Part shown: in pieces, positions 54,678-59,087 of the stretch | Layout of the letters: every line of letters starts with the position of its first letter | Position numbering within the stretch: position 1 is the first letter of the stretch | DNA from: Hydrogenophaga taeniospiralis CCUG 15921 | GTDB lineage: Bacteria > Pseudomonadota > Gammaproteobacteria > Burkholderiales > Burkholderiaceae_C | Direction of reading: 5' to 3' | Assembly (NCBI RefSeq): GCF_001592305.1 | Contig: NZ_BCWR01000004.1 | Location: 124,001 to 188,000 of the forward strand | DNA: 64,000 nucleotides | Notes under the pieces: model-generated | Told to the model about the DNA's origin: nothing | Database searches by the model: none | What the model saw: the letters and a program-made list of their open reading frames with translations, nothing else | Program-made: the position numbers and the translations under genes

Positions 54678-55346
54678 TCAGATCAGGCCGATCCAGCAGG
54701 CGCGCTGCACGGCCGCCAGCTTGTTGTCGGTCTGCAGCTTGGCCATGGCATTGGCCAGGTGGTAGTTCACGGTGCGCTCGGAGCAATCCATCCGCTGCGC
54801 GGTCTCGCGCGCCGTGAGCCCTTCAAACGCCAGGTTGAGGCTTTCCAGCTCGCGTGGACTCAGGCTGACCCGCTGCTCGGCAATGGCGCGCCGGAGCATG
54901 GGCCAGACGTTGTAGGCCGACCAGGCCAGCACCGCAGCTTCCGAGCGATCGGCAAAGGCGCGTGGGCTGAACATGAAGCATTCGAAGGCCCGACCGGCGG
55001 GCAGGCTGAAGGCCACCCGCACCAGGGTCTGGTGCCCATGGGCCAGCCAAAGGCGGCGCCAGCGGCCGCTTTGTTCAAAGGCCGATTTGGAAATGTCTTG
55101 CCAAGCCACCAGCGGCGCGTCGCTTTCACGCCAGCTGGCGCCAAAGTCCTGGCTCTCGGCCAGCGCAGTGGCGGGTCCGAGCAGCCGTGGAGGATGCACC
55201 GCCAGCACATCGCGCTCGTCGCTCCCCGCCATGGGATTGGGGCCCAACACCACCACCGCTTCCACGCCCTGCTCCTGCAGCGCGCAGACCCAATCGGCCA
55301 GAATGGCGTCTACGCCAACACTGTCAAAGTTGACAGGCAACGTCAT
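54678..55346 (-). CDS. LuxR-family transcriptional regulator (possible quorum-sensing receptor)
   Basis: A 222-residue LuxR-type protein with a DNA-binding C-terminus: L-S-P-R-E-L-E-S-L-N-L-A-F-E-G, then E-R-T-V-N-Y-H-L-A-N-A-M-A-K-L-Q. The T-V-N-Y-H-L and N-K-L-A-A-V pattern is that of AHL-type LuxR proteins. The N-terminal 150 residues have the length of an autoinducer-binding domain but are divergent; I do not see a full set of AHL-contact residues. It is divergent from the CqsS-like kinase. Its first codons contain CTGTCA-N4-TGACAG, also found upstream of the cqsA-like gene. ATG 55346 is preferred; ATG 55379 is an alternative. No LuxI-type gene lies in the window. Confidence 0.85.
   Translation of the reverse strand: MTLPVNFDSVGVDAILADWVCALQEQGVEAVVVLGPNPMAGSDERDVLAVHPPRLLGPATALAESQDFGASWRESDAPLVAWQDISKSAFEQSGRWRRLWLAHGHQTLVRVAFSLPAGRAFECFMFSPRAFADRSEAAVLAWSAYNVWPMLRRAIAEQRVSLSPRELESLNLAFEGLTARETAQRMDCSERTVNYHLANAMAKLQTDNKLAAVQRACWIGLI
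55321..55336. promoter_or_regulatory. CTGTCA-N4-TGACAG palindrome at the start of the luxR-type gene
   Basis: CTGTCAAAGTTGACAG has perfect 7-bp arms around AG. It overlaps early codons of the luxR-type gene and lies about 105-120 bases upstream of the kinase start. Its core CTGTCA-N4-TGACAG is the same as the centre of the lux-box-like site upstream of the cqsA-like gene (59068-59087). It may be an operator for autoregulation or for the kinase operon. Confidence 0.6.
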
Positions 55347-55359
55347 GGCGCGTTGCACG

Positions 55360-55408
55360 CTGTTGCACGGACAATGCATTGCAACAGTGACAGTGGGGGG
55401 AATGTCAC
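55360..55408. promoter_or_regulatory. Nested inverted repeats in the luxR-kinase intergenic region
   Basis: CTGTTGCA (55360-55367) and TGCAACAG (55380-55387) form a perfect 8-bp inverted repeat with a 12-base spacer. GTGACA (55387-55392) and TGTCAC (55403-55408) form another with a 10-base spacer. GTTGCAC is also directly repeated at 55352 and 55362. They lie in the 93 bases between divergent genes, where promoters of both must overlap. Confidence 0.5.
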
Positions 55409-55439
55409 GGCCTGTTGGCTGTCTTTGCTGAAGGAGTAC

Positions 55440-56750
55440 ATGTTGCCGATGGACCGTTTGTGGGTTCAAAGTGCCAGAGCCCGACTCTGGCAGTGGGTGC
55501 TGGACGAGATCATCCGCGCCCCGCTGGAGCCTATTTTGCACCCATCCAGCAACCGGTTGATCTGGATCGGCGCGTTCACCTTCTTCGGGCATGTCATTTT
55601 TGCCTGGATATGGGGACGGTGGTTGCCCCAGCCCTATGAGAACTTCGGCGTGCGTGCCACCATGGCGCTGCTGGCTCTGCTGTATCTGTTGCCCGCCATT
55701 TACAAAGAGCCGGCCTCCCAGCAAAGCGGCTGGCTGTTCAGTGTGGCGACCTGGATCCAGCTGCCCTGGTTTTTCACCTGGATGTACTGCATGAACAGCG
55801 GCAACCAGGTCTGGCTGGCCAGCCTGACCGCCATGATCCTGATCTATTACCACGCGACCGACTGGCGCATTGCCTCGCTGGGCCTGATCACGGGCGGGCT
55901 CGCGGGCTGGGCCACCGCGGGGCTGATGCATGCGAACAGTGCCCCCTGGCGCGAGCCCCTCGCAAACATCGTCGTGATCGCCTTCGGAAGCGTCATGGGC
56001 GTGATGCTGGGGTTTTCCAGCGCCAACCTGCGTCGCGCGCGCCTGTTCAACACGCTCAGCACCATGGGCGTGATGGCGCACGAACTGCGCACGCCATTGG
56101 CCACCGTGAATCTGATGGGCGATGTGTTGCGCAACCTGGTGCAGCACGACGTGCCCGAAAACAAGCGCAAGAAGATCGAAGAACTCTCCGGGCGGCTGCA
56201 GAACCTGGTGCGCAGCATGAACCGCCAGATCGACACCCAGATCTCCAACGCTCAGCTGCTGCGCCTGCCGCGCGAGCAGTCCGCCATCATGGCCGCCGAG
56301 CTGGTGAACGAGCTGGTTGGCCACTACCCTTACCGCTCATCCCGTGAACGCGACTGCGTGCAGGTGTTTATTCAGCAGGACTTCTGTTTTCTGGGTTCTC
56401 GGCCCTTGTTTGCCCAGGTACTCACCAATCTGATGAAGAACGCCCTGCATTCGCTGGCCTCCGGGGGGACTGCGCCCCAACCGGGCGACTTGCGCGTACA
56501 GGTGGGTCTGCACCATGGCAAGGGACGCATTGCCGTCTCCGACAACGGCGTGGGCATTCCATACGAGAAGCTGCATCGCATCTTTGAACCCTTTTTCTCC
56601 ACCCAGGTGGGCGCCGGCAGCGGCCTGGGCCTGACCTTCTGCAAGAACGTGGTGGAAGCCGCCCATGGCCAGATCAGCGTGCACTCCGAACCCAACGAGG
56701 GAGCGGTCTTCATGATCGACCTCCCGCTCGACACCCCCAAAGACGCTTGA
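55440..56750 (+). CDS. Membrane histidine kinase of the CqsS/LqsS type
   Basis: A 436-residue sensor kinase, predicted receptor for the alpha-hydroxyketone made by the neighbouring synthase. Six hydrophobic segments span about residues 40-190. They include W-L-P-Q-P-Y-E-N-F-G-V-R at about 61-72, close to the P-Q-S-Y-E-N-L-G-L-R segment of Vibrio CqsS. The H-box V-M-A-H-E-L-R-T-P-L places phospho-His at 214. N-box N-L-M-K-N-A-L-H and G-boxes S-D-N-G-V-G-I-P and G-S-G-L-G-L-T-F follow. Unlike Vibrio CqsS it has no C-terminal receiver. ATG 55440 follows AAGGAG. It lies 25 bases before the response regulator gene. Confidence 0.9.
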   Translation: MLPMDRLWVQSARARLWQWVLDEIIRAPLEPILHPSSNRLIWIGAFTFFGHVIFAWIWGRWLPQPYENFGVRATMALLALLYLLPAIYKEPASQQSGWLFSVATWIQLPWFFTWMYCMNSGNQVWLASLTAMILIYYHATDWRIASLGLITGGLAGWATAGLMHANSAPWREPLANIVVIAFGSVMGVMLGFSSANLRRARLFNTLSTMGVMAHELRTPLATVNLMGDVLRNLVQHDVPENKRKKIEELSGRLQNLVRSMNRQIDTQISNAQLLRLPREQSAIMAAELVNELVGHYPYRSSRERDCVQVFIQQDFCFLGSRPLFAQVLTNLMKNALHSLASGGTAPQPGDLRVQVGLHHGKGRIAVSDNGVGIPYEKLHRIFEPFFSTQVGAGSGLGLTFCKNVVEAAHGQISVHSEPNEGAVFMIDLPLDTPKDA

Positions 56751-56775
56751 AACGTCTCACACCCACACCCCACCC

Positions 56776-57762
56776 ATGGCCATCAAAATCCCCCTCTTCC
56801 ACCGTCCGGGCGGCATTCTGTTTCTCGACGACGACATCGACTACCTCGAAATGCTTGGCATGGTCGTGCCCGCTCACTTACAAATGGAGCTGTACTCACG
56901 GCCGGCCAGTTTTGTCGAACGCATGCGGGAGGAACCGGCTCGCTGGGAGGCCGACGCGGGGCAGCATATCCAGATGATCGAGCGCTGGCGTCAGGGACAA
57001 CCCCTGATGCCCCAGGTCCTGCGGTACTGGGCCAACAACCCGTCGCGCTACGAGCTGGCGCAGATCTGCGTGGTCGACTACGCCATGCCCGGCACCGACG
57101 GCCTCAAAGTGCTCAACACCCTGCTGGACTGGCCAGGCTCGCGTGTGCTGCTGACGGGCGCGGCCGACGAACAGATCGCCATCCAGGCGTTCAACCACGG
57201 CCTGATCGACCAGTTCATCCCCAAGCAGACCGCCGACATCTCAGGTCGTCTGCTGACGGCCCTGGCCAAGCTGGCCAACGCGCCGCACCCGCGCCTGAAC
57301 ACGCTCTGGCGCGCGGCCTTGCGCCCCACCCAGCAGTCGATACTGCAGATTCCTTCGGTGGCGCAGGCCCTGCAGGCGTACACCCAGAAGCGCTGGGTGG
57401 AATACGTGGTGCTGGGCGAGCCCTTCGGCCTCCTGGGTCTGGACGCCTTGGGCGGTTGCGAATGGTTGCAGTTGGAACCCACCACCGGCCTGACGGACCT
57501 GGCGGAACTGGCGAGTTCAGCCGGCCTGGGTTTTGACGTCGCGCGCGCGGTGCAGGCCGGGCAACAACTGCCCGCCGTGGAACTGCACCAGCAGCTGAAC
57601 CTGCGCGGCCCTATCCGCACGGCGCGCACGGTGTCGATGGGCGACGACGCGGTGCTGACTGCGGCCCTCTTTCCCCTGAAAGAAGCCGATCTGCCGCAAC
57701 CCATCTATCCCTACCGCCACTTCCTGGACGCGCAGGGGGCCCGGGTGATTCAGGACGCCTGA
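56776..57762 (+). CDS. Unusual response regulator paired with the CqsS-like kinase
   Basis: A 328-residue protein with a receiver domain in its first half. The acidic pocket L-D-D-D lies at 17-20, the phospho-acceptor is Asp101 in C-V-V-D-Y-A-M-P-G-T-D-G, T127 is in V-L-L-T-G-A-A-D, and K150 is in F-I-P-K. Asp101 is about 45 residues later than in ordinary receivers, so an insert (about residues 45-95) splits the fold between its early strands. The remaining 175 residues contain no DNA-binding, kinase or cyclase motif that I recognise. A regulator also accompanies the related Janthinobacterium Jqs and Legionella Lqs systems. Its end overlaps the convergent cqsA-like gene by 13 bases. Confidence 0.85.
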   Translation: MAIKIPLFHRPGGILFLDDDIDYLEMLGMVVPAHLQMELYSRPASFVERMREEPARWEADAGQHIQMIERWRQGQPLMPQVLRYWANNPSRYELAQICVVDYAMPGTDGLKVLNTLLDWPGSRVLLTGAADEQIAIQAFNHGLIDQFIPKQTADISGRLLTALAKLANAPHPRLNTLWRAALRPTQQSILQIPSVAQALQAYTQKRWVEYVVLGEPFGLLGLDALGGCEWLQLEPTTGLTDLAELASSAGLGFDVARAVQAGQQLPAVELHQQLNLRGPIRTARTVSMGDDAVLTAALFPLKEADLPQPIYPYRHFLDAQGARVIQDA

Positions 57763-59003
57763 GCGCCCGCGGCAACGGCCCTGGCCCGCCGTGCGATCGG
57801 CCAGTCCCACGGCCGGACCAGCGGCGCGATCTCACGCGCCACATCGACCACGTGATCCAGTTCGGCGTCGGCCAGGGAAGCGTTGAGCGTGAGCCTGACC
57901 ATGGCGCGATTGCGACTGGTCGCGGGCGCGCAGAAGATGGCGCCGAACACCCCACGTTCCTCCAGCGCATCGCGCAGCTTCATGGTCTCGGGCTCGGTGC
58001 CCGCCTCCAGGGAAATGATCTGCTCCGTGCCTTGGTGAATGGGATACCCCAGGCCAGTGAACGCGTCCCTCAGCCTGCGGGTCACCTCGCGCAGCCGGCT
58101 GCGCTCGGCGTCGGCCGCCCGCAGCACCGCCACCGTGGCTTGCAGCCCGGCCACCTCGGGCGGCAGCAGACAGGAGCTGAAGATGTTGGGGTAGCTGGAG
58201 CTGAGGATGTAGTAGCGCATGCTGGCGGGCGCGCTGAAGAACCCGGCCCGTCCCGCGACCGCCTTGGCCAGGCTGGCGGTGATGAAATGCACCCGGTCCG
58301 TCAGCCCCAGTTCGGCGCACAGGCCCGCGCCCTCCGGCCCATGGGTTCCCAGCGAATGCGATTCGTCCACCAGAATCATGCTGCCGTGTTTTTCCGCGAC
58401 CTCCACCATGTTCTTCAAAGGGCAAAGCGCGCCCGTCGTGCTGTAAACCGAGTCCACCACCACGATGCCTGCGCCCTTCTTCTCCAGCATCCGGTCCAGG
58501 TGATCCGGGTCGTTGTGCCGGAACGCATGCGCGGGCGCCCGGGCCGCATGCGCGCCCTCCCAGAGCGAGGTGTGGGCCAGGGTGTCGAGGTAGACCGGCG
58601 TGCTGGCGTCCGCGATGGACTGCAGCAGACCGACGTTGGCGGCGTAGCCCGACTGGCAGACGAAGCCGTCCTCTTTCCCGACCCAGTCGGCCAGCGCCAT
58701 TTCCAGCGCGCGCGTCGGGTGCTGCTGGAGCAGGAACACTCCCGACTGGACCACGAACTCCGTGCTGCGCGTCACCGCCTCGACCTGCGCCGCGACGATG
58801 GTCGGATGCCCGGTGACGTTCAGGTAGTCGTTACCATCCAGACGCACGGCGTTGGGCCCGGGCGGACGCCCATGCAGAACGAATCGACCGCCCCAGGTGT
58901 CTCGCCATCGGGGCGTGAACTCGCGCCCGATGCGGGCCTGCAACGCGGCGGACAGGGGCGGATTGACCGGGGATGTTTCGCGGACGGGTTGAAGCGTTTC
59001 CAT
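57750..59003 (-). CDS. cqsA: CqsA/LqsA-type alpha-hydroxyketone autoinducer synthase
   Basis: A PLP-dependent alpha-oxoamine-synthase-fold enzyme expected to condense an acyl-CoA with an amino acid or S-adenosylmethionine to give a CAI-1/LAI-1-like signal precursor. It has 417 residues (Vibrio CqsA about 389). Matches to CqsA are extensive: C-Q-S-G-Y-A-A-N-V-G-L-L-Q at about 116-128, L-A-H-T-S-L-W-E-G-A at about 142-151 and I-V-V-V-D-S-V-Y-S-T at about 180-189. The PLP-binding stretch is L-V-D-E-S-H-S-L-G-T-H-G-P-E-G-A-G-L. PLP lysine 247 is in T-A-S-L-A-K-A. The C-terminus has G-V-F-G-A-I-F-C-A-P-A-T-S. ATG 59003 has AAGGAG seven bases upstream. A lux-box-like palindrome lies about 75 bases upstream. 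Confidence 0.93.
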   Translation of the reverse strand: METLQPVRETSPVNPPLSAALQARIGREFTPRWRDTWGGRFVLHGRPPGPNAVRLDGNDYLNVTGHPTIVAAQVEAVTRSTEFVVQSGVFLLQQHPTRALEMALADWVGKEDGFVCQSGYAANVGLLQSIADASTPVYLDTLAHTSLWEGAHAARAPAHAFRHNDPDHLDRMLEKKGAGIVVVDSVYSTTGALCPLKNMVEVAEKHGSMILVDESHSLGTHGPEGAGLCAELGLTDRVHFITASLAKAVAGRAGFFSAPASMRYYILSSSYPNIFSSCLLPPEVAGLQATVAVLRAADAERSRLREVTRRLRDAFTGLGYPIHQGTEQIISLEAGTEPETMKLRDALEERGVFGAIFCAPATSRNRAMVRLTLNASLADAELDHVVDVAREIAPLVRPWDWPIARRARAVAAGAQAS

Positions 59004-59019: not shown

Positions 59020-59063
59020 AATGGGAAATCCCATTGAAAAAAGAAATCTGTGAAGAATTCACA
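59020..59063. promoter_or_regulatory. Two palindromes in the cqsA-like leader
   Basis: AATGGGA-AA-TCCCATT (59020-59035) and TGTGAA-GAA-TTCACA (59049-59063) are both perfect inverted repeats. They lie between the ribosome site of the cqsA-like gene and its lux-box-like palindrome. One could be a repressor site or an RNA hairpin near the start of the transcript. Confidence 0.5.
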
Positions 59064-59067
59064 ACAC

Positions 59068-59087
59068 ACCTGTCAGCCCTGACAGGT
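59068..59087. promoter_or_regulatory. Perfect 20-bp lux-box-like palindrome upstream of the cqsA-like gene
   Basis: ACCTGTCAGCCCTGACAGGT has perfect 9-bp arms around CC. It has the length and the ACCTGT...ACAGGT ends of the Vibrio lux box, the operator of LuxR-type proteins. It is centred about 75 bases upstream of the synthase start. The inner 16 bases share CTGTCA-N4-TGACAG with the site at the luxR-type gene. A further palindrome TCACG-TTT-CGTGA lies at 59105-59117. Confidence 0.75.

Follow-up and report, generated by a model that had tools for sequence, protein, structure and literature searches.

The window analyzed here (64,000 nucleotides of Hydrogenophaga taeniospiralis CCUG 15921, contig NZ_BCWR01000004.1, positions 124,001 to 188,000) contains a probable alpha-hydroxyketone quorum-sensing (QS) locus of four adjacent genes. 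The synthase gene, cqsA, converges on a gene pair that encodes a membrane histidine kinase (jqsS) and an LqsR/JqsR-type response regulator (jqsR), and a gene for a LuxR-type regulator, here luxR, diverges from the kinase gene. All four genes named in a preliminary description of this DNA were found at the positions given there (table 1).

The product of cqsA matches the NCBIfam equivalog model PRK07179 ("alpha-hydroxyketone-type quorum-sensing autoinducer synthase") with 549.6 bits, above the cut-off of 428, and its top match in the Protein Data Bank (PDB) is Vibrio cholerae CqsA (3hqt; E-value 5e-96), over almost the full length, which agrees with the CqsA/LqsA-type synthase first proposed. 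The DESHSLGTHG and SLAK stretches, which are active-site stretches of pyridoxal phosphate (PLP) enzymes, are identical in the two proteins. The kinase, whose linkage with cqsA is conserved, matched HisKA and HATPase_c but no receiver domain, as had been predicted for a receiver-less, CqsS-like protein. A simple hydropathy scan found four clear membrane segments above threshold, and two weaker hydrophobic stretches were seen by eye; six segments in all are plausible. Its true start may be the TTG at 55443 or the ATG at 55449, as judged from the intergenic alignment. The response regulator, previously described as unusual, belongs to the LqsR family: over its full length, the PDB has one relative only, LqsR of Legionella (6sy9; E-value 4e-15, residues 5–267), with which it shares the receiver, the C-terminal region and the VVDYAMPG phosphoacceptor stretch. 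In this protein, the domain search returned only a partial Response_reg match and recognized no DNA-binding domain.

Table 1. Features of the locus, with positions counted from the first letter of the window
Feature	Coordinates	Strand	Remarks
LuxR-type regulator gene (luxR)	54678..55346	-	222 aa; stop codon 54678-54680 included; divergent from kinase gene
Second box ACTGTCAAAGTTGACAGG	55320..55337	.	One mismatch; luxR codons 4-9; probable autoregulatory operator (frozen synonymous sites)
CqsS/LqsS/JqsS-like membrane histidine kinase gene (jqsS)	55440..56750	+	Without receiver; basis: HisKA + HATPase_c, hydropathy
LqsR/JqsR-family response regulator gene (jqsR)	56776..57762	+	Basis: partial Response_reg match + LqsR 6sy9
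CqsA/LqsA/JqsA-family alpha-hydroxyketone synthase gene (cqsA)	57750..59003	-	Converging on response regulator gene; basis: PRK07179 + CqsA 3hqt
-10-like TTCAAT	59033..59038	-	29-30 bp after box
Lux-box-like candidate operator CCTGTCAGCCCTGACAGG	59069..59086	.	83 bp before cqsA start; given as ACCTGTCAGCCCTGACAGGT at 59068-59087

The LuxR-type protein has its conserved start at M12 (MTLPVNFDSV, at 55346 and not 55379) in an alignment of 24 sequences. A C-terminal GerE helix-turn-helix (HTH) domain, scored at 55 bits, confirms the nature of this divergent gene and is present in all 24 orthologs, whereas none of the 24 matched the Pfam autoinducer-binding domain (Autoind_bind; PF03472). No PF03472 protein was matched in the whole genome to which the window belongs. 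The predicted structure (AlphaFold2 model, pLDDT 89, pTM 0.85) resembles QscR, RhlR, and SdiA over its full length, and its N-terminal half aligns with the ligand domain of CepR2 (Z 11.4, 3.6 Å, 144 residues). By the usual sequence criterion, a PF03472 match, this protein is not the LuxR solo initially suggested, although its predicted fold is like that of QscR and RhlR.

Gene counts, alignments, and box surveys were made on Hydrogenophaga genomes, Comamonadaceae genomes, and genomes of the order, the lists of box targets coming from pattern searches. Among 60 Hydrogenophaga genomes, cqsA was found in 48 and luxR in 52; 47 of the 48 cqsA genomes carry luxR, on the same contig and within a few kilobases of cqsA in 46 of them, G019 being an exception whose contigs break inside cqsA. 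Of 251 Comamonadaceae genomes, 29 contain cqsA and 31 luxR, and the two genes are adjacent in 26 of the 29. This linkage spans about 20 genera, named loci including those of Hydrogenophaga, Polaromonas, and Ramlibacter, with an identical gene order where inspected. By contrast, luxR was found in none of the 16 cqsA genomes belonging to other families (399 genomes of the order sampled), where complete cqsA loci retain the kinase gene and usually the LqsR-type gene (26–36% identity for the latter). The linkage expected among relatives therefore holds for Hydrogenophaga and related bacteria of freshwater and soil within the family, and its absence elsewhere indicates that luxR was added, at the level of this family, to a gene set that is widespread.

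At several loci (L088–L092 and L316), luxR keeps jqsR as its neighbor though neither a synthase nor a kinase gene of the usual set lies beside it. At L316 (Ramlibacter sp. WS9), where cqsA was not detected, an 836-aa hybrid kinase with HisKA, HATPase, receiver, and Hpt domains (L316:2230–4737) lies about 1.2 kb from the luxR–jqsR pair, which lacks the usual kinase; it is a possible replacement sensor. Another genome, G047, carries, besides the main locus, a second divergent luxR–jqsR–jqsS set (L094, G047:C53:30000–43000; 45%, 34%, and 29% identity), with neither synthase nor box.

The box in question is a dyad upstream of cqsA, with the consensus CCTGTCA-N4-TGACAGG, whose four central bases and flanks vary among relatives; its symmetry and its promoter-side position are lux-box-like, a lux box being an 18–20 bp dyad bound by a LuxR-type protein at a regulated promoter. 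In 94 distinct upstream regions of luxR-linked cqsA genes, it is perfect in 68 and has at most two mismatches in 91, and it starts 80–85 bp before the cqsA start codon in most of them, whereas it was recognized (at most two mismatches) in only 1 of the 17 cqsA regions without a linked luxR. The genome of the window has three perfect copies of the 14-base core and none of the reversed pattern, so that the lux-box-like site reported earlier goes far beyond chance, besides being conserved in position. That one region belongs to G556, a genome of another family where luxR is not present; its two-mismatch box (CGCGTCATAAATGACAGG, L325:4757–4774) stands about 110 bp before cqsA.

The only other strongly conserved block in the cqsA upstream regions is TTCAAT, found unaltered at an offset of 29 or 30 after the box in 78 of 91 regions, and plausibly the -10 element of the cqsA promoter. 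The aligned regions show no conserved -35 element between the two, which fits an activator-dependent promoter.

A second box lies within the first codons of luxR itself. Among 56 distinct luxR genes, Pro4 is CCT in 56, Val5 GTC in 55, Phe7 TTT in 56, and Asp8 GAC in 56, while the commonest codons for Pro, Val, and Phe in the rest of luxR are CCC/CCG, GTG, and TTC, respectively. The simplest reading is that these codons are frozen by selection acting on the DNA. In several other genera, this box is two mismatches off. Because it lies downstream of the gene's own start, we infer that the protein would repress luxR. In the luxR–kinase intergenic region (55346–55440), many Hydrogenophaga have repeats resembling TGCAAC/GTTGCA ahead of luxR, and a conserved ATTGT also precedes that gene; another regulator may act there.

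The distribution of perfect boxes points to the protein that would recognize them. At least one was found in 19 of the 31 luxR-bearing but in only 7 of the 220 luxR-lacking Comamonadaceae genomes (Fisher p = 4e-15, for genomes that are not independent). Moreover, the box follows luxR and not the synthase, because genomes with luxR but without cqsA also carry it: before a small RNA (sRNA) gene in G022, and, where no cqsA or kinase gene adjoins luxR–jqsR, at luxR in G115 and beside luxR–jqsR in G221. This co-occurrence strongly supports CCTGTCA-N4-TGACAGG as the predicted binding site of the LuxR-type protein.

Pattern searches also returned boxes elsewhere. Of the perfect boxes of the window's genome at G000:C6:284513 (L103) and G000:C18:193951 (L104), one is near a DJ-1/PfpI gene and the second precedes the gene of a 274-aa protein, a homolog of which adjoins a box in G039; the 274-aa protein that follows the perfect box on C18 has no Pfam match. 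In four genomes of the family, perfect boxes lie near homologous outer-membrane transporter genes of ShlB/FhaC appearance (L149, L153, L154, and L160), possible targets of the circuit outside Hydrogenophaga. In G053 (contig C17), a perfect box stands 67 bp before a gene for a canonical LuxR with both Autoind_bind and GerE domains (L139:1501–2337), possibly a second-tier regulator.

The commonest other target in Hydrogenophaga is the intergenic region preceding a UPF0093 (hemJ-like) gene. We rejected hemJ as a direct target, as an sRNA gene intervenes between it and the box. This RNA belongs to the Rfam family RF02837 ("anti-hemB"; 59.7–66.5 bits for a gathering cut-off of 49.5), listed as ncS04 in Burkholderia cenocepacia (PMC5688073), and it exceeds the cut-off in 53 of 60 Hydrogenophaga genomes, with or without luxR. 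The box before it, at a near-constant distance and with zero to three mismatches, is present in all 47 luxR-bearing Hydrogenophaga genomes examined, and absent from the five luxR-lacking ones and from G020 (best candidates with six to seven mismatches). Some 30 bp past this box comes a TAACAT-like element, in the geometry seen at cqsA. The window itself contains no Rfam match, and the sRNA box of its genome, degenerate in sequence (ATTGTCAAAATTGACAGG), lies outside the window at G000:C6:7496. No RF02837 core was found outside Hydrogenophaga among the fetched loci, the genomes of other genera not having been searched for the sRNA. The circuit thus appears to reach an sRNA outside the window.

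We consider it probable that this is an Lqs/Jqs-type alpha-hydroxyketone QS locus with a LuxR-type transcription factor of its own as DNA-binding output. From what is known of these families, CqsA would make the hydroxyketone, and the membrane kinase would sense it and set the phosphorylation of the LqsR-type regulator. Most likely, the latter would in turn signal to the LuxR-type protein encoded next to it, as the retained gene pair suggests; this step is preferred because luxR adjoins the LqsR-type gene even without synthase and kinase genes and because the LqsR family has no known output. The LuxR-type protein would activate cqsA, in a positive feedback, and RF02837 by way of the sites that precede a -10-like element by about 30 bp, and would repress luxR from the site inside its own first codons. 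More tentatively, this factor may be, in this family, the missing output of the LqsR-type regulator; protein contact with LqsR/JqsR, instead of an acyl-homoserine lactone (AHL), would control it, and it would drive both synthase and sRNA. The hybrid circuit of the preliminary description accordingly holds and gains strength from the linkage, the boxes at cqsA and at the luxR start, and the association of box with luxR, though without the notion of a LuxR solo.

Several points weigh against this interpretation. Eight perfect boxes occur in seven genomes lacking luxR, and 3 of the 94 luxR-linked cqsA regions have no recognizable box. G020, a 59% complete draft whose contig stops short of the expected position of luxR, has a boxed cqsA but no detected luxR and no sRNA box. 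The genomes are related, so the counts overstate the number of independent events. The CTGT-N8-ACAG core is common to LexA sites and other LuxR-type sites. Pairing of RF02837 with the translation starts of luxR, cqsA, jqsR, and jqsS does not go beyond chance, Qrr-like pairing scores giving a mean z between -0.2 and 0.5. Finally, the signs of regulation are deduced from box position, and contact between JqsR and the LuxR-type protein, the link that we prefer, is one that we infer.

Somewhat unlikely, in our view, is an arrangement in which the LuxR-type protein is itself the receptor and works, like a classical LuxR, alongside the kinase branch by binding a ligand, the hydroxyketone or a different one, in its N-terminal domain. 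The full-length resemblance of its predicted fold to QscR, RhlR, and SdiA, the CepR2-like N-terminal half, and the lux-box-like appearance of the candidate sites would all suit such a role, which is at odds with the lack of a Pfam autoinducer-binding match in 24 of 24 members. Furthermore, the conservation of luxR with jqsR where the locus has no synthase or kinase gene favors JqsR, and not the product of CqsA, as its partner.

That luxR would be a mere neighbor, and the box the property of another conserved DNA-binding protein such as LexA or an AHL-responsive LuxR, is improbable. The box core is indeed shared by several regulator families, and one perfect site in G053 precedes the gene of a canonical LuxR that does contain Autoind_bind. 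However, perfect boxes are concentrated in genomes with luxR, whereas LexA is, to our knowledge, near-universal, and a PF03472 protein is absent from the window's genome. In addition, the luxR start codons hold the box against codon usage, and the sRNA has no box wherever luxR is absent. A transcription terminator or RNA hairpin is very improbable, and the terminator reading was rejected at cqsA and at the sRNA, where no T-run follows the palindrome: folding into a hairpin (7-bp stem, 4-nt loop) is possible and several copies directly follow an upstream gene, but the spacing to the -10-like element is nearly fixed and one box lies inside the coding start of luxR.

The synthase, kinase, and LqsR-type parts have been described for Jqs, Lqs, Cqs, and PhcX, with homologs noted in Polaromonas (PMC3566124, PMC5080296, PMC3376566, PMC10653808). 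In Janthinobacterium, the jqsA–jqsS–jqsR genes are likewise clustered, but no LuxR-type gene has been described with them, and the QS-regulated genes carry a different motif, TTGA-N6/7-TCAA (PMC3566124, PMC5080296). The lqsA–lqsR–hdeD–lqsS cluster of Legionella shares the hydroxyketone synthase, the kinase, and an LqsR-family regulator of unknown output, but it includes hdeD, and no linked LuxR-type regulator has been described for it (PMC3376566); there, the Lqs-associated transcription factor is LvbR (PMC11237717). The Vibrio CqsA/CqsS–LuxU–LuxO–Qrr–HapR pathway similarly starts with a CqsA-family synthase and includes small RNAs, as the regulon apparently does here, but runs through a phosphorelay to LuxO and through Qrr RNAs that depend on RpoN (PMC3376566), whereas Hydrogenophaga has a LuxR-type factor beside its LqsR-type regulator, a promoter of sigma-70-like appearance, and an unrelated RNA, RF02837. 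Ralstonia PhcX, comparable to the luxR–jqsR pairs, is an LqsR-type regulator that stands apart from the Lqs synthase and has been connected to different QS components, but it adjoins phcBSRQ, with no mention of a LuxR (PMC10653808). Compared with the QS regulators QscR, RhlR, SdiA, and TraR, the protein studied here has the same GerE HTH, predicted fold, and lux-box-like dyad, but Pfam Autoind_bind does not recognize its N-terminal domain, and its gene lies beside a hydroxyketone locus and not beside luxI. Outside Comamonadaceae, the cqsA loci are without luxR, and only one of them has the box. A literature search, with most subscription papers outside its reach, found no published account of the luxR linkage and its box, in agreement with the novelty suggested at the outset.

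The activity of the C-terminal domain of LqsR-family proteins is not known (PMC3376566, PMC10653808), and how this family acts on genes is an open question, which the luxR–jqsR lineage, with its sharply defined operator and predicted targets, makes directly testable, Hydrogenophaga being cultivable. In Hydrogenophaga, the conserved but functionally obscure RF02837 RNA gains a predicted regulator. Two textbook QS architectures are apparently fused in one circuit; if the more tentative reading, with control by contact with LqsR/JqsR, is true, a hydroxyketone kinase pathway would be joined to LuxR-style promoters, and the Qrr branch of Vibrio would have a counterpart here that evolved independently.

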